From: Saccharospirillum mangrovi | Lineage (GTDB): Bacteria; Pseudomonadota; Gammaproteobacteria; Pseudomonadales; Natronospirillaceae | Direction: 5' to 3' | DNA length: 64,000 nt | Assembly: GCF_003367315.1 (NCBI RefSeq) | Contig: NZ_CP031415.1 | Span: 2,664,001-2,728,000 of the forward strand | Part shown: one piece after another, positions 14,120 to 42,198 of the stretch | Numbering within the stretch: position 1 is the stretch's first letter | Layout: every line of letters begins with the position of its first letter | Position numbers and translations under genes: made by a program | Notes under the pieces: model-generated | Told to the model about the DNA's origin: nothing | What the model saw: only the letters and a program-made list of their open reading frames with translations | Database searches by the model: none

Positions 14120-14995
14120 ATGAGTCAACGCCGTCCCGACCGCTTCCACATTGCCCGCGAAACCGACCAGCCAGAACCGCTGGCCGGTTGGCGGCTGCGA
14201 TTGAACGACATCATCTTCGGAGCCGAATCGCCGGCCGGCAAAGCCTTCGACATCGCGCTGATCATCGCCATTCTGATCAGCGTCATGGCGGTGATGTTGG
14301 AAACGGTGGGTACAGTGCAACATCAGCACGGCGGATGGCTGGTGCGGCTGGAGTGGTTTTTCACGCTCGCTTTCACGCTCGAATACGGCCTGCGCCTGCT
14401 GTGCGTGCGACACCCCTGGCGCTACGCCACCAGCTTTTTTGGCGTTGTCGATCTGCTGTCGATCATTCCGACTTATTTAAGTCTGCTGATTCCGGGCGTG
14501 AATTCGTTGCTGGTGATCCGGGTGCTGCGCATTCTGCGCGTGTTCCGGGTGCTGAAACTGTTTCGCTATCTGAACGAAGCGGAAATGCTGTTGCAGGCGA
14601 TGCGCACCGGCTACCGCAAAATTCTGGTGTTTCTCTACGCGGTACTGACGCTGGTGATCGTGTTCGGTTCGATCATGTATCTGATCGAAGGCCCGGATAA
14701 CGGTTTTTCATCGATTCCGCGCTCGGTGTACTGGGCCATCGTCACGCTGACTACCGTCGGCTACGGCGACATCGCGCCGGTCACCGCCATCGGCCAGTTC
14801 ATTGCCTCGGCGGTGATGATCACCGGCTACGCGATCATTGCCGTACCGACCGGCATCTACACCGCCGAACTCGCCAACCAGATTCGCATCAAACGCGATT
14901 CCCGCGGCTGCCCCGGCTGTGGCAAAACCGGCCACGAACTGGACGCCGATTTCTGTCGCTTCTGTGGTGAATCGCTGCAAACCGGCCACGACTGA
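14120..14995 (+). CDS. Voltage-gated potassium channel, six-transmembrane, with C-terminal zinc ribbon
   Basis: The 291-residue protein has six predicted membrane helices of the ion-transport family. S4 carries regularly spaced arginines (RVLRILRVFRVLKLFR, about residues 134-149), the pore holds the K+ filter TVGYGD near residue 212, and S6 follows. After S6 the tail contains CPGCG and FCRFCGES (about residues 261-283), four cysteines that look like a small zinc ribbon. It starts 7 bases after the barrel gene stop, so the two may share a transcript. Confidence 0.92.
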   Translation: MSQRRPDRFHIARETDQPEPLAGWRLRLNDIIFGAESPAGKAFDIALIIAILISVMAVMLETVGTVQHQHGGWLVRLEWFFTLAFTLEYGLRLLCVRHPWRYATSFFGVVDLLSIIPTYLSLLIPGVNSLLVIRVLRILRVFRVLKLFRYLNEAEMLLQAMRTGYRKILVFLYAVLTLVIVFGSIMYLIEGPDNGFSSIPRSVYWAIVTLTTVGYGDIAPVTAIGQFIASAVMITGYAIIAVPTGIYTAELANQIRIKRDSRGCPGCGKTGHELDADFCRFCGESLQTGHD

Positions 14996-32851: not shown

Positions 32852-32884
32852 GACAACAGCAGGATTTAAGTGCTCGTGGTTGGC

Positions 32885-32914
32885 TGTAGGAAAATAGCTC
32901 GTCTAGCTCCTACA
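32885..32914. repeat. REP-like palindrome at the island border
   Basis: TGTAGG (32885-32890) pairs with CCTACA (32909-32914), and inside them AGCT-N5-AGCT makes a nested dyad. On the minus strand it reads TGTAGGAGCTAGACGAGCTA, which resembles the REP elements of gammaproteobacteria. It marks the left edge of the island. Confidence 0.55.
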
Positions 32915-32949
32915 ACCGCGCCTTGAGCACCTACGACGTTGTGGGCCGT

Positions 32950-34023
32950 TTAAGCAGCCTTATCAAGAAACTTAGCGATATCTTCTCTTTTATTCCACAA
33001 CAACTTTTCGCAATCCATTTCCAAAAGCATATCGATGGTGCGTTTACAACGAGTGTCATCTCTAACGTACCAAGCTAACCAATTTGGACGAATTGTGTCA
33101 TTAAAAGTTAAGACCTCTGAATCAACTAGTTCACGATAGCTAGCTTTGATAAACTCTTGGGCTTGCAAATCACTAGTCATATACTTTGGCAGACATATTT
33201 TTTTTAGAGCAACAGGTCCGCTAGCGACTTCTGCACCAAAACACTGCAATACTTTTCTCCACTTAGTTTTAATTTTATAACTTCGTTTCCAAAAATCACT
33301 TTGAGAAATACCTTTAGTCAAGGAGCGCGTCTCCTCATACATGTCAAAAGACCCAGGGAAGAAATTAATTTGCTCTGGAATACCTTTCATAAGGAGCTTC
33401 GACTCCTCAGGTATAATTAGTGTCCTTTCACAAGTTAAAAATCTATAACTATCGGCACGATTCAATGCTTCCATATATACTGTTGTTTTTCCACTTCCGG
33501 ATGATCCCACAACTAATGTTCCACTTTCTGACCTGCAAAATGCCGAGCTATGCATGACTATCGCGCCCCGCGACTCGTAATATGGAACTAATAATTGATC
33601 TCTTACTATTCTCCTTACCTCTTTAGATCCTCTGTCCAAGTCAGAATTGTACAGCTTGATAACTTTCTTATCGTAATCACATACAATAACACTCTTTTTT
33701 GTAACCGAATCAACAATTGTAAGCCCGTCTTCTTTTGATATCCGTCCAATTCGATCTTCATTTTTAGTGTTCTTTGGCTTATGCATATAAAACTCTGTAT
33801 AAGAGCAATTAGCGTATTCTGCTAAGGTACTTTCATATAGACCTTCAGAACTATAAAATTCAACTGAACCAATACAAATACAGTCACTTGCAAGTAAGCC
33901 TGCATCACGCGTTACAGTAAAATACTCGCCCAATTCATTTTCTAGCAACGTGAACGTGTATGAATCCTCAGAAATTATATAAACATAAGCCTTATTCAAT
34001 ATAACATATAAATTATCACTCAT
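32950..34023 (-). CDS. HPr-kinase-like P-loop protein
   Basis: The 357-residue protein has a P-loop VVGSSGSGKTT (Lys179) in its central part and a pattern (SRGAIVMHSSAF before it) that matches the HprK-related kinases found with PqqD-like proteins and nucleotidyltransferases in many peptide or polysaccharide clusters. It is longer than HprK itself and lacks its usual partner HPr. The ATG at 34023 has AAAAGG 5 bases upstream. Likely job: phosphorylating a peptide or sugar intermediate, which is inference. It starts one base after the kdsA-like stop. Confidence 0.75.
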   Translation of the reverse strand: MSDNLYVILNKAYVYIISEDSYTFTLLENELGEYFTVTRDAGLLASDCICIGSVEFYSSEGLYESTLAEYANCSYTEFYMHKPKNTKNEDRIGRISKEDGLTIVDSVTKKSVIVCDYDKKVIKLYNSDLDRGSKEVRRIVRDQLLVPYYESRGAIVMHSSAFCRSESGTLVVGSSGSGKTTVYMEALNRADSYRFLTCERTLIIPEESKLLMKGIPEQINFFPGSFDMYEETRSLTKGISQSDFWKRSYKIKTKWRKVLQCFGAEVASGPVALKKICLPKYMTSDLQAQEFIKASYRELVDSEVLTFNDTIRPNWLAWYVRDDTRCKRTIDMLLEMDCEKLLWNKREDIAKFLDKAA

Positions 34024-34024
34024 A

Positions 34025-34825
34025 TCATACCTTTTCGTATTCAATGGATTTTGATAAGTCTGAAATCGCTTTTATATTTTTTAAGATTGCCTTTAATTTA
34101 CCTGTCGGAACCATATTCGGACCATCACTAATCGCTTTGTCAGGCTCAGGGTGCGTTTCGAAGAAAAATCCTTGAACCCCAACAGCTGCCGCCCCCCTTG
34201 CCAGCGCTTCAACGCAGTCTCTACGGCCACCTGTAGAAGTTAATTCTGATCCTGGTTGTTGTACGCTATGTGTAGCATCGAAAATAATAGGGATGGATTC
34301 TAATTGTAATTGATATATTGCTTTAAAATCATTAACCAAATTATTGTAACCAAAGCATGTCCCCCTCTCCGTAATGAATACAGGACCGTTAGTAAAGGAC
34401 TTGGCTTTATTGTAAAGTGATATTGTTTCACTTGGCGATAAAAACTGTCCTTTCTTAATATTCAAAATAGCATTTTTGCTCGCAGCTGCCTCTATAATAT
34501 CCGTCTGTCTACATAACAGCGCTGGTATTTGGATGATATCTACTATATCCCCAGCTTGCCTAGCATGTTGCTCATTATGCACATCAGTGGTTACTTTAAG
34601 TCCGTGCTGTTCCCGTACTGCCTCCAAAATTCGCAAGCCTTCATCAATACCAACTCCTCGCTTCGAACTTGCAGAAGTTCTATTTGCCTTATCAAAGCTA
34701 GATTTAAATACTATTTTTATACCCAATTCTCTTTCAATATTCACTAGCTCTTCTGCAACCGTCATTACAAGATCATAAGACTCTATTGCACACGGCCCAC
34801 AAATATATAAAGGAAGATTTTCCAC
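34025..34825 (-). CDS. 3-deoxy-8-phosphooctulonate synthase paralogue (KdsA-like)
   Basis: The 266-residue protein carries the KDO-8-P synthase signatures: YICGPCAIES, KSSFDKANRTS, QIPALLCRQTD, NIKKGQFLSP, TERGTCFGYNNLV, DATHSVQQPG and HPEPDKAISDGPN. Metal ligands Cys, His, Glu and Asp are all in place, so it looks like an active metal-type enzyme that joins phosphoenolpyruvate with a sugar phosphate. One change is TDVHN where TDVHE is usual. The GTG start at 34825 follows AGGAGA at 6 bases. AT-rich codon use differs from core genes, so this is probably not the housekeeping kdsA. Confidence 0.9.
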   Translation of the reverse strand: MENLPLYICGPCAIESYDLVMTVAEELVNIERELGIKIVFKSSFDKANRTSASSKRGVGIDEGLRILEAVREQHGLKVTTDVHNEQHARQAGDIVDIIQIPALLCRQTDIIEAAASKNAILNIKKGQFLSPSETISLYNKAKSFTNGPVFITERGTCFGYNNLVNDFKAIYQLQLESIPIIFDATHSVQQPGSELTSTGGRRDCVEALARGAAAVGVQGFFFETHPEPDKAISDGPNMVPTGKLKAILKNIKAISDLSKSIEYEKV

Positions 34826-34863
34826 ATTATTCTCCTAATGAAATATAAATTAACACAGGCTGA

Positions 34864-35493
34864 TCATCTTATTAAACTTAAATCCTCATTAACAGCATCA
34901 AAATCATCATCAGTTAAAGTTGCAATTGACTTATGTCCTAATTTTCCACTAGTCCAATGACTAACTTCAGAACCATGAAACATGTCATTCTTACCTTTCA
35001 TTGCAGGACCACGAAAAAATAGCGAATAAACTGTCGAATAGGGAATCAATTGATGTATCGCATCATGGTCCAATGTATAGCTGTTACCTTCTCGCACATC
35101 ATGAGTCATGACTATCGTACTATCATCTACTACACCGTTGATCCTACGATAGATATTTTGACGATAGGATCCAGAGAGCAACAAAGTTGCAATCTTGAAT
35201 CTATGATTATGCGGGCTTTCTGATCCTTCATTTGGTGAACGCTGCCTTATTTTATGTAATCTCAGTGACCATCCCGTATCGTTACATTTGTAAAGGATAT
35301 ACTTATCAATATTAGGACCACGCTCACTATACTCAGTTCGATTATCACTATATTTTATTTCATTCACGCGCTCTATAATTGGCTGTAGATCTCTTGCTAA
35401 CTCTAGCAACGAAGCCGTGATCACGGCGTGAAAATCAAGATGATTGACCCAATCAATACGTTGAATTCGATTAACAATGCTTTGATTTATCAT
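34864..35493 (-). CDS. Cupin-like protein
   Basis: The 209-residue protein has two cupin motifs: SPHNHRFKIATLLLSGSYRQ near residues 95-114 and YTLDHDAIHQLIPY near residues 138-151. Their His residues could bind iron or another metal, as in cupin dioxygenases or isomerases. I do not recognise a specific family. The ATG at 35493 overlaps the preceding nucleotidyltransferase stop by 4 bases, so translation is coupled. Confidence 0.65.
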   Translation of the reverse strand: MINQSIVNRIQRIDWVNHLDFHAVITASLLELARDLQPIIERVNEIKYSDNRTEYSERGPNIDKYILYKCNDTGWSLRLHKIRQRSPNEGSESPHNHRFKIATLLLSGSYRQNIYRRINGVVDDSTIVMTHDVREGNSYTLDHDAIHQLIPYSTVYSLFFRGPAMKGKNDMFHGSEVSHWTSGKLGHKSIATLTDDDFDAVNEDLSLIR

Positions 35494-36377
35494 GTGTTCG
35501 ATTCCTTGAATATTCTTATATGCTCTTCCCCTAAAAACCATGCAATATCGGAATTAGGACTGAGCATCGTCATTTTATACATCTTAGAAAATTCGGCCTG
35601 ATAATTTTTGCAGGTCAACTGTTTAAGATTAGAAAGTTGACAGTTAACGGACGAAGATACGAACTCATTGTCAAATGAGCAAATTGTATCTCTGAACCAA
35701 GTTAAAAGCACAATTATGACCTCTTCCAATTGACCCATTTCGAGCTCAGAAAACATGGCCTGCTCATATACTTCCCTGATTCCTCTTGGCACTTTAGGTT
35801 CGTTTAAAAATATTTTTGTTGTCCATTTCTTGTTCAAAAAAGATCTATACGACAATGACAAGTATGCAAGTGCCTGACACTCTATATAGTCCCTAAATAG
35901 CAATACCACTTGTCTCAAATCGCCATCATAGTAGGCACCTAGCATGTCTTTAAACTTCGCGTAGCCACCATAGAAAAACCGGTGATATAGAAAAGCAAGC
36001 ATTTCTATGGATGGTGCGCTTACCACCATATTATTGCAAGCATATATACAGAAAGATGATCTCAATCTATAAAGCGATAATAACCATGAAGGTATGATCT
36101 CCGGCTTCTTTGTAGTCTGTACTAGTTTTTCATATAAAACTGGGATCATTGAGCAATTTTTATTATACTCATCAAGTTTAATGCACGATATATCATACTT
36201 AATATTATTTATATAAATATCATAATTGAACGTCCTACTATGATTGATCACATATACGTCGATGTCCGAAGTACAGTTACCGTATCCAGACACTCTGCTA
36301 CCGCCTACAAAAACAGTCATAGATTGAGCAATATCTTTGTGTTTATTTAGTTCATCTAATAAAATTTGATTGCTCAT
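35490..36377 (-). CDS. Pol-beta-type nucleotidyltransferase
   Basis: The 295-residue protein has the minimal-nucleotidyltransferase motif GGSRVSGYGNCTSDIDVYV (residues about 25-43), that is GS followed by the DxD metal pair. The rest is helical and specific to this protein. Enzymes of this fold transfer AMP, CMP or UMP to a hydroxyl group. The ATG at 36377 has GGAGAA 5 bases upstream, and the gene overlaps the dehydrogenase gene by 26 bases. Confidence 0.78.
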   Translation of the reverse strand: MSNQILLDELNKHKDIAQSMTVFVGGSRVSGYGNCTSDIDVYVINHSRTFNYDIYINNIKYDISCIKLDEYNKNCSMIPVLYEKLVQTTKKPEIIPSWLLSLYRLRSSFCIYACNNMVVSAPSIEMLAFLYHRFFYGGYAKFKDMLGAYYDGDLRQVVLLFRDYIECQALAYLSLSYRSFLNKKWTTKIFLNEPKVPRGIREVYEQAMFSELEMGQLEEVIIVLLTWFRDTICSFDNEFVSSSVNCQLSNLKQLTCKNYQAEFSKMYKMTMLSPNSDIAWFLGEEHIRIFKESNT

Positions 36378-37359
36378 GAAATTCTCCAATTGAATAGTTC
36401 TGAATAGTTTCCTTTAATTCAGAGAGCGAATCTTTGTCAAACCACAACGGCACTGGCCGCATATTCGAGGGGTCTATAGGCCATCCTATTGTTGCATGTT
36501 TTTCAAAGCGCCTAAACTTTAAAGGAAGCTCAAGCACTACTGGCTCCAATGCCTCTCCTTGCAATAATTTGATGATATTACAAATAGACTTAGCACAAGA
36601 ATAAGCACTTCCATTCTTTTGTGAGTTCAATCTCTGGAGAAGCCACCACTTGTGGTGATCAGGAGCCATATTTAAGTGAGATAATAAGTTTGAGTACTCG
36701 TCTTCATTGATCTGTTGGTTTTGAAATTTCGAGTACTCTTTATACAGAGTCTCGCCAAAAACTAATGATTTTTCAACACCTAAGCTCTCATATCTAGAAC
36801 CAACATGGTACTCAAAAAAATTATGTCCTCCTACAATAAATAGATCATCAACAGAACATGTTTTTCTAAACCTAATGTTGTCGTTTTCAACTCCAACTGA
36901 ATAGGCTGATCCGATATTTTGCTTGTTTATTTCGTACATTATACGTGTACATGGATTAGTAACAATTAAAGTCGTTCGAGGCGTCAATCTATTAATGTAG
37001 GTACATACATCCTCAAAGTTTGAGCTATACAGGCGCTCCTTTAGGTTCTCCCCGGTCGTACTTTTGTTATTCTTTCCCGAAGCTATGACTAAAAGATCAC
37101 AATTAGATACTTCTGATATATTCGTAGCAATTCGAACCATTTCCGGCTGTGGAGTATCTAATAGAACAGCCCTCAACCTAGCAGAGTACTGAGTACTGTG
37201 ACTATATAGAATGACTGATATGGTAGGAGCCTCATATTGTAAGAGAGTAATTAGGTCTCTACCAACTTGACCAGCCCCACCAATTATAACTATTTCTGAA
37301 AGGCCTCTCGGGATGCTGGCAATCACTTCGGGCACAATGCATTCCATTTCCTTCGCCAT
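36352..37359 (-). CDS. Lactate/malate dehydrogenase family protein
   Basis: The 335-residue protein has the NAD-binding Rossmann start IVIIGGAGQVGRDLITLL, the CDLLVIASGKN turn, VTNPCTRIM with the conserved Asn, an ENDNIRFR segment that keeps the Asp-Arg pair of the active site, and VGGHNFFEYHVG with the catalytic His. The substrate loop differs from both LDH and MDH, so it probably oxidises or reduces a different 2-hydroxy or 2-keto acid. Such a reaction could act on the KdsA-like product, but that is inference. Confidence 0.8.
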   Translation of the reverse strand: MAKEMECIVPEVIASIPRGLSEIVIIGGAGQVGRDLITLLQYEAPTISVILYSHSTQYSARLRAVLLDTPQPEMVRIATNISEVSNCDLLVIASGKNNKSTTGENLKERLYSSNFEDVCTYINRLTPRTTLIVTNPCTRIMYEINKQNIGSAYSVGVENDNIRFRKTCSVDDLFIVGGHNFFEYHVGSRYESLGVEKSLVFGETLYKEYSKFQNQQINEDEYSNLLSHLNMAPDHHKWWLLQRLNSQKNGSAYSCAKSICNIIKLLQGEALEPVVLELPLKFRRFEKHATIGWPIDPSNMRPVPLWFDKDSLSELKETIQNYSIGEFHEQSNFIR

Positions 37360-37384
37360 TTTTAAACCATCCTTAATCAGTGAC

Positions 37385-38593
37385 TTAATAATTTTGTGAT
37401 AGTTTTTGATTCAAATTTAAAATTTTACTGCTAAGTAAAATTAATGCACCTATGATAAGGAAGGTTCCAAGCCAAGACAGTAATCTATCTACAGAAATAT
37501 GACTTCCTAGCAATGCGTATAGCCCCAAGCTTATTGGCATCAAAGATTTAAAGATACTTCCAGAAATCCCAGAAACTTTGCCAATGTCAGATTTTGGAGT
37601 AATCAATAGCCTATACGTACGAATACAAACTACATACATCGAATACAAGAATGATTCGGCAAATAGCAACATTGCAATAGTGAATACATTCAAGTTGATC
37701 GAACAAATAATATACGCCGCACCAATCAAAATAATGCTAAAAATTAGTATTTTTATGACCCCGAAAAGTTTTTCTAAAGACTCAGAAAAGTAAGACCCCA
37801 GTATGGCGCCTAGCCCAGAAATGCCGAGCAAAACTCCTATAGCCGCGTCAGACAATCCCAGTGTTTTTTTGCAATAGAAGATGATGGCAATTTCGGTTAA
37901 GACGATTATTGAATTTGTTACAGCTGTCCACCATGATAAAGTCCATAAAGTCTTTAACGAATAAGCTACTTTAAAACCTTTAGCGAAGTCTTTTAAAAAT
38001 GGACTAGATGAGTCACCTGGATTTACTCTAAAACTAATAGACCCTAAAGTAAGGGTTAAACAAAGTAACAAAACACTTAAGATTAATGCGCTTTTATAGG
38101 AAATAAAAATTAACAGTAGCCCAATAATTGCAGGTCCAGTACTATCAATACTGTTGCTTACCATGCTGTTTATTTTAGTGAAATTTACTATCCTGTCACT
38201 TGGGAGTTCAAACTTAACCTGAACCATAAACGAGTTGGCAGCGAAATATGTAAATCCCATAGAAGTAAATACCAACCCTACCATCAATCTTTGATCTACA
38301 GCGCCTGTTACAGCCAGCAGGAATATTGCAATTGCCTGTCCGGATGTCCCAATAATAAAACCAGATCTACTTCCTATTCGATCAACGATAGTTCCTATAA
38401 CAAGCCCTATTAGTAGAAATGGCAAGAACTCAAATAGCCTTACACTACTCATGAGACCACTAGAGCTAGTAAGTTCATAAGCCCATAATGGCAGAATGAA
38501 GTAAGTAGTTTTTTCGGAAAGAGCCCTAAAAACAGAGATTGCAATAAGGTTTTTCAATTTTTCACCTACGTATTCTTGAGTAATAGGTAGCAT
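37385..38593 (-). CDS. MFS transporter, probable exporter
   Basis: The protein (402 residues) has about 12 predicted membrane helices and an MFS loop between helices 2 and 3 (GLVIGTIVDRIGSRSGFIIG). The pattern resembles drug/metabolite exporters of the MFS_3 type rather than nutrient importers. The ATG at 38593 overlaps the stop of a tiny upstream ORF (TGATG). It is the only transporter of the island and so the likely exporter of its product. Confidence 0.82.
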   Translation of the reverse strand: MLPITQEYVGEKLKNLIAISVFRALSEKTTYFILPLWAYELTSSSGLMSSVRLFEFLPFLLIGLVIGTIVDRIGSRSGFIIGTSGQAIAIFLLAVTGAVDQRLMVGLVFTSMGFTYFAANSFMVQVKFELPSDRIVNFTKINSMVSNSIDSTGPAIIGLLLIFISYKSALILSVLLLCLTLTLGSISFRVNPGDSSSPFLKDFAKGFKVAYSLKTLWTLSWWTAVTNSIIVLTEIAIIFYCKKTLGLSDAAIGVLLGISGLGAILGSYFSESLEKLFGVIKILIFSIILIGAAYIICSINLNVFTIAMLLFAESFLYSMYVVCIRTYRLLITPKSDIGKVSGISGSIFKSLMPISLGLYALLGSHISVDRLLSWLGTFLIIGALILLSSKILNLNQKLSQNY

Positions 38594-38634
38594 CAAACCA
38601 TACCGATACGGATTTGACTCTGAAATTTGTACAT
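38593..38634 (-). CDS. Possible 13-residue leader ORF coupled to the MFS gene
   Basis: On the minus strand GGGGGTGA, a 7-of-8 match to the Shine-Dalgarno sequence, lies 8 bases before an ATG encoding MYKFQSQIRIGMV, whose stop overlaps the MFS start as TGATG. An alternative ATG at 38652 would give 19 residues. The MFS gene has no good ribosome-binding site of its own, so translation probably restarts from here. It may be a coupling leader or a second small peptide. Confidence 0.35.
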   Translation of the reverse strand: MYKFQSQIRIGMV

Positions 38635-38805
38635 TGAATTATTCACCCCCATCTTGCCAACTAAATAGCGAGTGAAAAAAGCTAGTATGAATTTAGCTAT
38701 GTACCATGGCTTTAACACCTTAACCTATAAGTTTTTATCGCAGCTGGCTGCAATCAAATAAATTTCTTAGCCCAACGAAATAGACTTTTATTGCCAATTA
38801 CCTCT
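38635..38805 (-). other. 171-bp intra-island gap
   Basis: The stretch between the NTP_transf_5 stop (38806) and the small ORF. On the minus strand another frame reads on as LNREVIGNKSLFRWAKKFI after the upstream stop, a plausible original C-terminus lost by a frameshift. No tRNA or clear terminator is visible, so a single transcript may run through. Confidence 0.35.
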
Positions 38806-39852
38806 CTATTCAATTGGTTCAAAATTTGATCCAGTTGTCGAGTAAAAGTATTTCCTTTTCGCAAAGGATAAAGATTTATGTTTATTATCTTTACAATATT
38901 TCGAGCTAGAAACTACTAGTGGAAAATCTATCTTCCTCAACAAGCTGACCATCATTCGGCTATCCAGAATACCTATTGCAAAACTCCCTATAATTGTTGA
39001 TTCGTTAATACGGTCGATGACCTTTCTGAGTCTTTCAAAAATAGGTAGCTTTTTCCTTTCACTACCCTCTGACAGATCAATAAATAGCGGATTTGCACTT
39101 GGAATTAAATCGAATACAACCTTAGGAAGTTCAATTTTTTTAGAAACAGCAAGTGATCTTACTTGATCTATTTGATCTGTGTTCATTTTCTTTAATAGTA
39201 GCTCTAGCTCTACAGCATCTCTAACCAAGCACCTGTTCTTGCGATCAAACTGTGTAAGCAGAAAGAATACTTGCAGTGCGCATGTACCTGCTGCTTGTTC
39301 GAAAACATCCATTTCCTCCCATGAAATCGACCTTCCATGGAGGTCAATTGGAAACCGCATGCAATGCAACTCAAATCCACGATCCGAATGACTCCCCTTC
39401 GGAACAAATCTTGTAGAAAATGTTCTCTTAGGATCTTTAAGCTGCAAGTCAATCGCAAATGACTCTTCATATCCTGCACCATCTAATAGACCACAAACTA
39501 TTGCAAATGATGCCTCGTCCCTTGTGACTATATCTATGTCCAATGACAGTCGCTTAGTTCCAGATGCGTATAGCTGATCTTCAATCTTTCGACCCTTAAT
39601 TAGCTTTACACTTTTACCTAGTTGTTTTTCATTGAGAATTAAGTCTAAAGCTTTAGTATTTAAGCTTGCCTCAATCGATATTTCTTGTAGAAAATTCTCT
39701 ATACTTACATCTTCTAACTCATTTTTTTTTGAATAGATGATTTTTTGATAGAGTAAATATTGGTCTGATAGTTCTGAGTAGTCGGCTAACATTCCGCTCT
39801 CTATATATTGCTTGTATTTTGATATCAAAGCTTCTTCTTTCAAAACATTCAC
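38806..39852 (-). CDS. NTP_transf_5-type nucleotidyltransferase
   Basis: The 348-residue protein has the family core LIKGRKIEDQLYASGTKRLS followed by DIDIV, the DxD metal site (residues about 80-105), and PIDLHG with ISWEEMDVFEQ later on. Uncharacterised nucleotidyltransferases of this family travel with HprK-like kinases and PqqD-like proteins. The GTG start at 39852 overlaps the preceding gene by 4 bases (GTGA). The last residues (STTGSNFEPIE) are atypical; see the possible frameshift after it. Confidence 0.8.
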   Translation of the reverse strand: MNVLKEEALISKYKQYIESGMLADYSELSDQYLLYQKIIYSKKNELEDVSIENFLQEISIEASLNTKALDLILNEKQLGKSVKLIKGRKIEDQLYASGTKRLSLDIDIVTRDEASFAIVCGLLDGAGYEESFAIDLQLKDPKRTFSTRFVPKGSHSDRGFELHCMRFPIDLHGRSISWEEMDVFEQAAGTCALQVFFLLTQFDRKNRCLVRDAVELELLLKKMNTDQIDQVRSLAVSKKIELPKVVFDLIPSANPLFIDLSEGSERKKLPIFERLRKVIDRINESTIIGSFAIGILDSRMMVSLLRKIDFPLVVSSSKYCKDNKHKSLSFAKRKYFYSTTGSNFEPIE

Positions 39853-40199
39853 CCCATAAGTTGATCAATAAAATTTTGATCAGCTTTATTTAACTCTTGA
39901 TGATTGGGAAGGAGATCCTTAATTGAAGATAGATAGCGCTCAATAGTTTTAGAGTCTGATGATAATTTTTCGTATATCAATGAAAATGCAGAAAAATAGC
40001 TAAGCCTGTTATTATATATTGTAAGCTCTAAAAATTCTACAATACCAATTTCAGGCGGCGAGAGGTTTTCTGAATTACAATCTCTCTTAAACTTAAGAAC
40101 AAATTTTTGCAGGATTTCATATTGAGAATCAGCATCTGCAAATGAACAAAAAAGAGAGGCGTGACGTGGTATCAAGATATTTTCAATATAAGAAATCAT
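39849..40199 (-). CDS. Small helical protein, unknown function
   Basis: The 116-residue protein is mostly helical by residue pattern, with no recognisable motif. It starts 3 bases after the RRE-HDO stop and overlaps the NTP_transf_5 gene, so it is co-translated with both and is probably a structural or recognition partner of one of them. I do not recognise a family. Confidence 0.6.
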   Translation of the reverse strand: MISYIENILIPRHASLFCSFADADSQYEILQKFVLKFKRDCNSENLSPPEIGIVEFLELTIYNNRLSYFSAFSLIYEKLSSDSKTIERYLSSIKDLLPNHQELNKADQNFIDQLMG

Positions 40200-40202
40200 T
40201 CC

Positions 40203-41123
40203 CTATCCCTCTAATAATGAATTATTCATCCAATGCATAATGCTGTATGTATTTAAAACCTGATACTTAATTGATTCTGCTTTTCTATGTGAAAACTCTC
40301 CAAAAGTCTTCATCATATGCAAGCTCTCGAGATCATGATCACCATTAGAGTTTATGTCCTCGTGAATGCGCTGAGGCTTAATAACTTTATCTGGTAGGTT
40401 GTACAACTCTAATGCACTTAGATAGTCATCAGCGTCGACCCTAGTACCCTCAAATAGAAAAATCATAGAGGAAAATGACTCGATATCAGTTAAGGACATG
40501 AGTTTTAGATGGTTCATTAGGACTCGAGTAGCATACCTTGGCGTCAAGCTAGTGATGTCACCTTCCGAGTATCCTAGCTCTATGAGAGATTTTCTTAAGA
40601 GCTTTTCATGTCCATACTCTTCCCTAAAAAACTCGAACACTTGATCTGTATACCCAATAGTTTGCGCGATGGCTGCCGATACTGAAGATGAACATAAGCG
40701 TGTCACTTGATAGTATTCTTCAATAAATCGGACAACCTCAGCATTACTAAGCGCTCCCTCGAAAAAGAGGGTATCGAATTTGGACTCCCCAATGTTTAGA
40801 ATATGGTAATATTCAAACCATGCTTCCAGTTCACATTGAAAGGCTAGAGAGTTAACGAAACCCGGGCGGGTGGGTACGCCTTCGGTAACTAACCGCAGCT
40901 TTGCTAGCTGTAAAAATATCTCCTCTGCTTTGTCTTCAGCGAGAATTTCATTAATATCTTGTCTTGATGACATTCGCTGGAATAGCACTTTTGCTATTTT
41001 TTGCTTTTCTTCACTATCAAATCCAATCGTAATCTCTTGATCAAAAATTTCTATTCTTAGCTTTTCATGATTAATCCATGAAAAGCTTAAGTTTGGGTTC
41101 AGTACAGGGTGCTGAAATATCAT
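40203..41123 (-). CDS. Heme-oxygenase-like diiron protein with an N-terminal RRE-like domain
   Basis: The C-terminal domain (about 95-300) resembles the haem-oxygenase-like iron enzymes (TenA/PqqC/HDO fold). Possible metal ligands are Glu136 (RFIEEYYQ), Glu169 and His172 (EEYGHE), Glu225 (FLFEG) and His254/Asp262/His263 (IHEDINSNGDH). The first about 85 residues (HPVLNPNLSFSWINHEKLR to QLAKLRLV) have the beta-hairpin plus winged-helix look of PqqD-like RiPP recognition elements. The ATG at 41123 has AAGGAA 9 bases upstream. Other HDO proteins oxidise or fragment amino acids, so this could modify the peptide encoded just upstream. The fusion reading is inference. Confidence 0.7.
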   Translation of the reverse strand: MIFQHPVLNPNLSFSWINHEKLRIEIFDQEITIGFDSEEKQKIAKVLFQRMSSRQDINEILAEDKAEEIFLQLAKLRLVTEGVPTRPGFVNSLAFQCELEAWFEYYHILNIGESKFDTLFFEGALSNAEVVRFIEEYYQVTRLCSSSVSAAIAQTIGYTDQVFEFFREEYGHEKLLRKSLIELGYSEGDITSLTPRYATRVLMNHLKLMSLTDIESFSSMIFLFEGTRVDADDYLSALELYNLPDKVIKPQRIHEDINSNGDHDLESLHMMKTFGEFSHRKAESIKYQVLNTYSIMHWMNNSLLEG

Positions 41124-41177
41124 ATATTGATTTCCTTATTCACTATATTGGGATTCAATATTCCCTATAATTAACTA

Positions 41178-41195
41178 GGGGAGGTATTCCTCCCC
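41178..41195 (-). other. Stem-loop between the short peptide ORF and the RRE-HDO gene
   Basis: GGGGAGG-TATT-CCTCCCC is a perfect 7-bp stem. It has a T tract only on the plus strand, so on the minus-strand mRNA it is not a full terminator but may slow polymerase or protect the upstream peptide message, as in many precursor-peptide operons. Confidence 0.6.
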
Positions 41196-41222
41196 TTTTC
41201 TAACCAGATTTAATCTAGTGTA

Positions 41223-41273
41223 TTACAGTGCCGAAGTGGCACGACGTACACGTTTAGCTTTTAAAATATCCAT
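41223..41273 (-). CDS. Candidate 16-residue precursor peptide
   Basis: Translation gives MDILKAKRVRRATSAL. The ATG follows AAGGAAG at 6 bases, the best ribosome-binding site of the island, and the gene is first in the operon, before a stem-loop and an RRE-like HDO gene. It is too short for automatic gene callers. The frame continues upstream to a GTG at 41426 (67 residues), but that start has no ribosome-binding site and would overlap the promoter. Function as a modified peptide or scaffold is inference. Confidence 0.45.
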   Translation of the reverse strand: MDILKAKRVRRATSAL

Positions 41274-41301
41274 TAAAATCTTCCTTATATAGTTAGTTGC
41301 T

Positions 41302-41329
41302 AATTTACTCTCACGATTAATGAGAGCAA
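41302..41329 (-). promoter_or_regulatory. Candidate island promoter with an internal operator
   Basis: On the minus strand TTGCTC (41324-41329) and TAAATT (41302-41307) are separated by 16 bases. The spacer contains CTCTCA-N7-TGAGAG (41308-41326), a perfect 6-bp inverted repeat. This would start RNA about 25 bases before the peptide ATG at 41273. The boxes are weak, so the assignment is tentative. Confidence 0.45.
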
Positions 41330-41639
41330 TTTCAAATTCGCATAATTTAACTCTTGATGCAATTCCCTTCCGAGGATTTTTTCCAATTATGACAACTTTT
41401 TCAAACGATGGTCGACTTGATAGCACCCATCAAAGCCTGATCTCTAATAATCTGATTGAAGCGTTACGCTAGTAATTAGTTGTTGATGACCTTACTGCCT
41501 CGTTCATGCCTGCCTTCGAGTACTTTCAATAATCCGGTTCTCTTGACTCAGCTGAACATTCCCAAACCCTAGTCATCTAGAGAATGGAGCTAATGTTTTC
41601 GGCTGCCTATAGCTTTCGTCTAAGCGATGTAAACAATTC
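41330..41639. other. 310-bp gap between the island promoter and the tRNA-derived array
   Basis: I see no gene with a ribosome-binding site here. The first part overlaps the unlikely GTG extension of the peptide frame. The remainder is intermediate in base composition and marks the right border of the island. No integrase remnant or direct repeat of the tRNA end is evident in it. Confidence 0.5.
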
Positions 41640-42111
41640 AAGAACGTCCAGTGTGAGGGCCCAATCGGTCCAGCTCGCGACCAGTAGCAAATAAAAGCCC
41701 CAACCACTCAACGTGATTGGGGCTTCTCAAAATTTAGTACCAGAGGCCAGACTCGATGGTCCGGCATCTCGGCCGAACGGCCAGTGTGCTGGTCCAATCG
41801 GTCCAGCTCGCGACGCCAGGCACAAAAAAGCCCCAACCACTTTCGTGATCAGGGCTCTTTAAAATCTGGTACCAGAGGCCGGACTCGATGGTCCGACACA
41901 TCGGCCGAACGGTTTGAGTCCGACTCGCGACGCAGAGCAATAAAAAAGCCCCGACCACATATCGTGATCAGGGCTCTCATATATCTGGTACCAGAGGCCG
42001 GACTCGACGGTCCGACGCCTCGGCCGGCACGTGCCGGTTTGAGTCCGGTCGCGACGCCCAGCAACGAAAAAGCCCTGACCACTTTTACATGATCAGGGCT
42101 TCGTCAAATAC
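41640..42111 (-). repeat. Tandem array of tRNA-Leu 3' ends with terminators (rtT-like)
   Basis: Behind tRNA-Leu the block CTGGTACCAGAGGCCGGACT (plus strand), a copy of the last bases of the tRNA, recurs at 41985, 41866 and, with changes, at about 41734. Periods are 126, 119 and 132 bases. Each unit also has a conserved CGGCCGA/GTCGCGA middle and a Rho-independent terminator (minus strand: 42066-42100, 41942-41975, 41824-41856, 41693-41724). The layout matches the E. coli tyrT rtT repeats, in which tRNA-end copies and spacers are repeated. Sequential integration scars are the alternative. Confidence 0.85.
42066..42100 (-). terminator. First terminator after tRNA-Leu
   Basis: On the minus strand AGCCCTGATCA pairs with TGGTCAGGGCT around a short loop, followed by TTTTT (A run at 42066-42070). 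The same element is repeated three more times in the array. Confidence 0.85.
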
Positions 42112-42198
42112 TGGTACCAGAGGCCGGACTCGAACCGGCACAGTGTTGCCACCGGGGGATTTTGAATCCCCTGCGTCTACCAATTTCGCCACTCTGGC
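42112..42198 (-). tRNA. tRNA-Leu(CAA)
   Basis: The minus strand folds as a long-variable-arm tRNA of 87 nt: acceptor GCCAGAG with CTCTGGT (a G-U first pair), D-arm GGCGAAATTGGTAGACGC, anticodon loop ATTCAAAA with anticodon CAA, long variable arm CGGTGGCAACACTGTG, T-arm CCGGTTCGAGTCCGG and an encoded CCA end. Anticodon CAA is that of leuX, a known island insertion site in other gammaproteobacteria. Confidence 0.96.

Follow-up and report, generated by a model that had tools for sequence, protein, structure and literature searches.

Two elements of the pathway considered here are already known from described systems: heme-oxygenase-like diiron oxidases (HDOs) in pathways of peptides, including ribosomally synthesized and post-translationally modified peptides (RiPPs), and C-terminal oxidation guided by a RiPP recognition element (RRE). 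The HDO-family enzyme MboA of the mangotoxin pathway acts on the C-terminal Arg of a peptide (PMC13185094), and deletion of VarO, an HDO-family protein of the RiPP thiovarsolin, points to desaturation of an Arg side chain (PMC6511847). RRE-guided oxidation of the C-terminal residue is known from daptides, and RREs are present in about half of the prokaryotic RiPP classes (PMC10036551). The subject here is an AT-rich island at 32950 to ~41640 of a 64 000-nucleotide stretch of the Saccharospirillum mangrovi genome (contig NZ_CP031415.1, positions 2 664 001 to 2 728 000; the window). It carries an operon of nine open reading frames (ORFs) preceded by the 16-residue precursor peptide MDILKAKRVRRATSAL. 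We propose that this operon probably encodes a RiPP-like biosynthetic pathway, in which a fused RRE-HDO protein oxidizes the C-terminal end of a peptide ending in Leu.

Daptides resemble this proposal in that an RRE directs oxidation of the last residue of the precursor. They differ in that their precursors end in Thr whereas the window peptide and 24 others end in Leu, in that the oxidant here would be an RRE-fused HDO, and in that no methyltransferase was recognized by Pfam in the window operon (PMC10036551). The MboA substrate is a tripeptide made by ATP-grasp ligases and not by the ribosome, and the term "RRE" is absent from the text of that paper (PMC13185094); the thiovarsolin pathway, unlike the window, has YcaO and TfuA (PMC6511847). 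Pearlins and 3-thiaglutamate (PMC9303977, PMC9016710) are alike in that a ribosomal peptide undergoes chemistry at its C-terminus, and neither a PEARL (LanB-like) ligase nor a DUF692 protein was found by Pfam among the nine island proteins. In modified lasso peptides the PadeK/PsmK kinase and the PsmN nucleotidyltransferase act on the precursor C-terminus, and the lasso-type HprK kinases have a His-Lys-Asp-Asp motif (PMC9266682). The window differs in its C-terminal Leu instead of Ser and in a kinase-like protein that has lost the Asp-Asp pair, and Pfam identified neither a lasso cyclase (asparagine-synthetase-like) nor a leader peptidase among the nine proteins. Nitrilobacillins (PMC13060819) were weighed as well and rejected, since their C-terminal enzyme is asparagine-synthetase-like. 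Searches of the open-access full-text literature, subscription papers lying outside it, showed no description of either RRE-fused HDOs with Leu-ended precursors or this gene set, in line with the first-pass annotation, which knew of no such pathway; a structure-based RRE survey (PMC12710340) has "heme" and "oxygenase" only in its references. The peptide-HDO system looks like a pathway to a peptide-derived natural product of a type not described before.

The ORF of MDILKAKRVRRATSAL (41223..41273, minus strand) has an AAGGA ribosome site 8 nt before its ATG; on that strand, the listing for 41124 to 42100 contains no other short ORF preceded by a ribosome site. Judged from sequence, it is very probably a real gene, because all 25 examined HDO loci have a short peptide ending in Leu; position, ribosome site, Leu end, and a hairpin after it are common to the window peptide and its relatives. 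The order in the window is peptide gene, hairpin, and HDO gene, the hairpin being G+C-rich, terminator-like, and of eight pairs (41177..41196, minus strand), with a tail of mixed A/T that is T only in part. Both the possible peptide and the stem-loop of the first-pass annotation stand. The same scan as for the stem-loop found promoter-like sites to be no commoner than in shuffles. Upstream, the frame of the peptide continues without a stop to a GTG at 41426 (67 amino acids), before which no ribosome site is visible, and by its reading frame the window precursor may be longer (41223-41426), resembling those of 61 to 70 amino acids in Bacteroidota. Microcin C has a similar gene order, with a very short peptide gene, a hairpin, a modifying enzyme, and an MFS exporter. 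Unlike microcin C, the island has an HDO and no ThiF-type enzyme among its nine proteins by Pfam.

A short peptide ending in Leu lies ahead of the HDO gene or its operon in 25 of 25 examined loci, a count that speaks for the HDO sub-family picked by the scan motif and not for HDOs generally. The expectation that homologous clusters would keep a short peptide with the HDO was borne out, with the gene of a thiamine diphosphate (ThDP) enzyme intervening in four loci, those of Tistrella, Pedobacter, UBA4416, and G1239. Four plasmid relatives (Enterobacter, Robbsia, Rhodococcus, and Tistrella) were found without regard to peptides. All four have a short ORF ending in Leu (MKVTRRVIPVMNARL, MSQATTKQPVIVVKPRNPRPVLIPVHL, MTITKKKRTIVAVAVHL, and a fourth ending ...EKPVLIAVHL), which is absent from all three annotated records. 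Before the window, Enterobacter, Robbsia, and Rhodococcus HDO genes the peptide is the sole listed ORF with a ribosome site, whatever the last residue; the upstream stretch in Tistrella has five such ORFs, two of them in the frame of the peptide. A DNA motif scan of genome contigs gave 42 loci, with an HDO by profile in 19 and not in 23. An ORF ending in Leu with a ribosome site lies upstream in 16 of the 19 (L034 lists an unrelated one too), and in the remaining three the peptide was read by eye; in Pedobacter and a Bacteroidetes metagenome-assembled genome the by-eye peptide stands before the ThDP gene with no obvious ribosome site, and one by-eye peptide is truncated by the locus edge, 11 residues being visible. 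An earlier scan of genome contigs, built on a two-sequence alignment, had given 67 pattern matches, none of them confirmed.

The rule also held where the motif had played no part. HDOs occur in two of 16 genomes of the Roseateles genus, and in a new locus of this genus, which was not motif-selected and came to light later than the rule, a ThDP gene is preceded by a peptide ending ...GKSVLVAVHL. Among 349 genes, 15 have, in the 300 nt ahead of them, any ATG ORF of 13 to 60 amino acids preceded by a strong ribosome site; nine of these ORFs end in Leu, and 9/9 stand before HDO genes. The limits of this test were fixed after the peptides were known, duplicates among the upstream stretches were collapsed, and several HDO genes fell outside the test, their longest ORF overrunning the peptide. 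All 21 aligned Robbsia-like peptides end in -HL with varying codons (five for Leu, two for His), and so does a further Robbsia-like locus that was not motif-selected. Since the last two residues are constant while their codons vary, it is the protein and not the DNA that is conserved. The HDO profile matched one of 399 genomes in the Roseateles order, that of Roseateles itself; viral contigs held no relatives by HDO, kinase pair, NTP_transf_5 trio, or motif, and the Enterobacter core had no match in E. coli genomes.

The RRE-HDO fusion of the first-pass annotation was upheld in both of its parts. The N-terminal domain (residues 1-88; 40860..41123, minus strand) has RRE/PqqD-like secondary structure in the AlphaFold2 model and a PqqD profile match of 93.5%, with shuffles reaching at most 0.81%. 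Two of the 20 HDOs, from Bacteroidota and without an N-terminal domain, were left out of this profile test, and on its PqqD side 12 of 20 loci were kept, four having no extracted ORF and four being dropped for too few matches. The N-terminal part is thus supported, on modelled structure and profile, as an RRE/PqqD-like domain. Residues 89-306 (40203..40859, minus strand) form the diiron oxidase domain. By sequence it scores 27.7 bits, under the cut-off of 28.9, and its identity is secured by structure comparison, in which the domain is CADD-like and the heme-oxygenase-like fold clear. The VIA list spans residues 89-306 and, holding no RRE chain, is uninformative for the N-terminal domain. Five residues, E169, H172, E225, H254, and H263, are invariant in 20 of 20 aligned HDOs and are inferred from this alignment to be the putative diiron ligands; E136 varies. 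For several loci one HDO was kept out of the alignment, which represents L018 only by L065 and is without L020, L024, L025, L031, L034, L040, L044, L046, L047, L050, and L051.

By HDO similarity the 25 loci fall into three of type B (window, Enterobacter, and Roseateles) and 22 of type A (Robbsia-like); the C-terminus is -HL in every type A peptide and AL, RL, and RL in those of type B. An MFS exporter, an NTP_transf_5-like protein, the peptide, and the HDO form a core in all three type B loci, between two of which, Enterobacter and Roseateles, the HDOs are 32% and the NTP_transf_5 proteins 30% identical. These two clusters also have an aminotransferase and an NDK-like protein in common. The NDK-like proteins (L002, 4415-5467; L064, 13930-14844) match Pfam NDK below cut-off and are 35% identical over 200 residues. 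Roseateles has in addition a TonB receptor and a phosphoenolpyruvate (PEP) mutase (L064, 14866-15723; Pfam 3e-56; TIGR02320 307.7 bits, cut-off 319.6), and with the latter in the cluster a peptide-linked phosphonate is a possible product. The Enterobacter extras are a second HDO, a 2-hydroxyacid dehydrogenase, an APH-type phosphotransferase, a histidine phosphatase, and a DUF2817 (M14-type) protein. The accessory PEP-using enzyme varies, KdsA being that of the window and PEP mutase that of Roseateles.

Type A loci have two or three HDO ORFs in 17 of 18 scan loci, the single one of L047 lying at the locus end. Accessory genes were inspected in a few of them: aminotransferase and GNAT genes are present in L065 and in Robbsia, the latter with an EamA transporter as well, and L067 has an acetolactate-synthase-like ThDP enzyme, below cut-off; ThDP enzymes were also read by sequence in Tistrella, L068, and G1239. 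The class III aminotransferase of L065 matches the daptide model (E = 8e-46), but its 156 bits fall below the cut-off of 450 and it fits other models better. As aminotransferases and ThDP enzymes both use carbonyls, the HDOs may generate a C-terminal carbonyl. We also noticed a variant arrangement in L067, L068, L011, and L093, in which a VHL peptide is followed by an acetolactate-synthase-like ThDP enzyme and then by the HDOs; it spans Bacteroidota, Alphaproteobacteria, and a Roseateles-genus genome.

The island stands out by composition, with a per-kilobase GC of 0.35 to 0.38 between 33 and 41 kb, flanking kilobases of 0.53 on the left and 0.60 to 0.62 on the right, and lowish values of 0.47 to 0.48 also at 26 to 29 kb of the window. 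Its nine ORFs run in a single direction on the minus strand from 41123 to 32950, as the first-pass annotation had described. Downstream of the HDO gene lie a 116-amino-acid protein without a convincing family, also as first described (39849..40199), and an NTP_transf_5-like nucleotidyltransferase (38806..39852) with a weak Pfam signal and weak matches to the Enterobacter (E ~3e-5) and Roseateles (6e-5) proteins in databases of some 35 to 40 proteins; it has no plasmid match at E 1e-3. The MFS exporter (37385..38596; MFS_1, 1.3e-18) and the KDO-8-phosphate synthase (KdsA) paralogue of the GPC (Cys) type (34025..34825; two NCBIfam equivalog models) both match above curated cut-offs, confirming their first assignment. 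Between these two are a Rossmann-type dehydrogenase distantly related to LDH/MDH (36352..37359; weak family matches), found only in its own genome among 349; a second nucleotidyltransferase-like protein (35490..36389) with a Pol-beta-type motif read by eye and models below cut-offs, neither of these two matching plasmids at E 1e-3; and a 225-amino-acid protein of no family (34864..35541).

The KdsA paralogue retains by alignment DKANR, KKGQF, DATHSVQ, SDGPN, and the metal-site Cys, which we take to be the hallmarks of KDO8P synthases. A second copy elsewhere in the genome is 47% identical to it. Because these motifs are kept and the genome has a second kdsA, the sugar-acid synthesis first suggested for the paralogue is, as far as motifs tell, plausible. 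The last gene encodes an HprK-related kinase-like protein (32950..34044; NCBIfam TIGR04355, 1e-5, below cut-off); with a relative in Bosea matching at E = 4e-40 over 98%, its family assignment is secure. Aligned by eye, it keeps H165 and K186 (the P-loop Lys) and has Cys205-Glu206 at the Asp-Asp site, so that its role is uncertain. Among 398 genomes it matched the own one and gave two partial matches. Searched against the PDB with phmmer it gave short matches at E 0.013 and worse, mostly influenza hemagglutinins, which were taken as chance. The Bosea vaviloviae plasmid locus (L004, 12526-20795) has the HprK-like protein with an MFS protein, NTP_transf_5, a 2-hydroxyacid dehydrogenase, and a methyltransferase, and a histidine-phosphatase-like ORF, unlisted and read by eye, at ~14330-14940; it has no HDO match and no clear peptide.

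The island adjoins a tRNA-Leu(caa) gene (42112-42198, minus strand), which, with its 3′ end repeated in three additional copies, forms a possible integration site (41734..42198, minus strand) by sequence match; one of the three copies has 3 mismatches. They lie in tandem by the gene (41734-42133), each with a hairpin-like sequence alongside, and are possibly scars of repeated integration. Elsewhere in the window there is no match, at up to 3 mismatches, to a 19-base piece of the 3′ end of tRNA-Leu, so that the other island edge is marked by no copy, and Pfam found no integrase among the nine proteins. The HDO is present only in its own genome among the 96 nearest genomes, is lacking in 5/5 congeners, and by profile occurs in one of 369 genomes of the class, again its own; the island looks acquired from elsewhere.

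In the proposed pathway, the short ribosomal peptide with its C-terminal Leu would be bound through the RRE-like domain, a role supported by the modelled fold, and the diiron domain would oxidize its C-terminal end, either Leu or the preceding residue, as suggested by the conserved C-terminus and by MboA (PMC13185094). The NTP_transf_5-like protein, a member of the recurring core, probably transfers a nucleotidyl or phosphoryl-linked group. Given the presence of KdsA, a KDO-like acid may be made in parallel: the KdsA paralogue, the dehydrogenase, the second nucleotidyltransferase, and the kinase-like protein would build a 3-deoxy-ulosonate unit and activate it. Activation and transfer would fall to the nucleotidyltransferases, as PsmN suggests by analogy (PMC9266682). 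The sugar acid would be joined to the peptide, and the MFS protein would export the conjugate. Comparison supports the peptide-HDO pairing, the C-terminal Leu, the RRE-like fold, the HDO fold, and the recurring four-gene core; a precursor gene conserved beside the modifying enzyme and a predicted precursor-binding RRE domain are both features expected of a RiPP pathway.

Several points weigh against this proposal. The evidence on the operon consists of gene content, sequence comparison, and modelled structure, and the link between KdsA and the peptide is their shared operon. The three type B peptides have little in common beyond the last residue, and two are clearly basic while that of Roseateles, MQVRNTTVGVESGDFRL, is not. 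The Pfam PqqD model alone misses the RRE-like domain, PF05402 giving no match at 1e-8 in the own genome. Four first-pass assignments persist as weak or distant matches that fall short of curated cut-offs: NTP_transf_5 (16 of 31.2 bits), the second nucleotidyltransferase (best 16.8 of 27), the LDH/MDH relative (21 of 27), and the HprK-like protein (24.9 of 200), the last of which has Cys-Glu in place of the lasso-kinase Asp-Asp but a clear relative in Bosea. The cupin label once given to the 225-residue protein is unsupported, with no family or PDB match and a predicted fold of pLDDT 32. Pfam recognized no peptidase in the window operon, two proteins of which are family-less. Overall, what was first observed is partly confirmed and its interpretation partly supported.

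The same features can be read in other ways. The peptide could be a carrier, from whose modified C-terminus a small amino-acid-like product is cut in a pearlin-like scaffold pathway, and we regard this as quite possible though short of probable: the C-terminus is the conserved part of the peptides, L065 and Robbsia have their aminotransferase and GNAT genes (Robbsia with an EamA transporter), and Enterobacter has an M14/DUF2817-type hydrolase, but neither a peptidase nor a PEARL-type ligase was recognized by Pfam among the nine window proteins. It is unlikely that the island combines two unrelated modules, one a pathway of peptide, HDO, NTP_transf_5, and MFS and the other for a surface sugar of the KDO type. 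By motif the KdsA paralogue looks like an ordinary KDO8P synthase, and RRE-HDO, NTP_transf_5, HprK, KdsA, and LDH genes, which the first-pass annotation proposed to search for together, occur as a full set in no other examined locus, both halves meeting in no examined relative; a gap of ~210 nt before the MFS gene could moreover hold a second promoter. The genes from MFS to kinase, however, share a strand and are tightly packed, overlapping at three junctions and leaving gaps below 40 nt at two, and no other known polysaccharide gene was found by Pfam among the nine proteins.

The serious rival is attenuation, in which the peptide is a leader whose translation, or ribosome stalling at its C-terminus, controls whether transcription continues past the hairpin into the HDO operon. 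Two findings that favor it also count against the RiPP-like pathway: a short ORF and hairpin precede the first enzyme gene, and the type B hairpins have five to six T in eight nearby bases in 3/3 loci. A conserved C-terminus would fit an arrest peptide too. Across the 24 loci covered by the hairpin and T-tract test (G1239 being outside it), a G+C-rich hairpin is present in 22, but with at least four T of eight in only six; two Bacteroidota loci keep a -VHL peptide where no G+C-rich hairpin was found, and the HDO has an RRE-like domain. Attenuation thus fits type B and not the whole family, and we consider it rather improbable.

Returning to the RiPP-like pathway, a wider reading, which we hold only tentatively and with some doubt, is that of a new RiPP class in at least three phyla, with precursors ending in Leu, in which the RRE-HDO makes the C-terminal end reactive and each lineage couples a unit of its own to it. 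These would be a PEP-derived sugar acid in the window, giving a peptide-ulosonate conjugate, a phosphonate in Roseateles, and a transaminated or ThDP-extended group in Robbsia-like loci. If true, the window's conjugate would unite the chemistry of ribosomal peptides with that of nucleotide sugars. The system may also offer a way to products combining a short peptide with PEP-derived acids. HDOs are a rapidly expanding family of oxidases of which few peptide substrates are known, and for them the recurring Leu-ended precursor provides a defined test substrate and a simple genome-mining rule.

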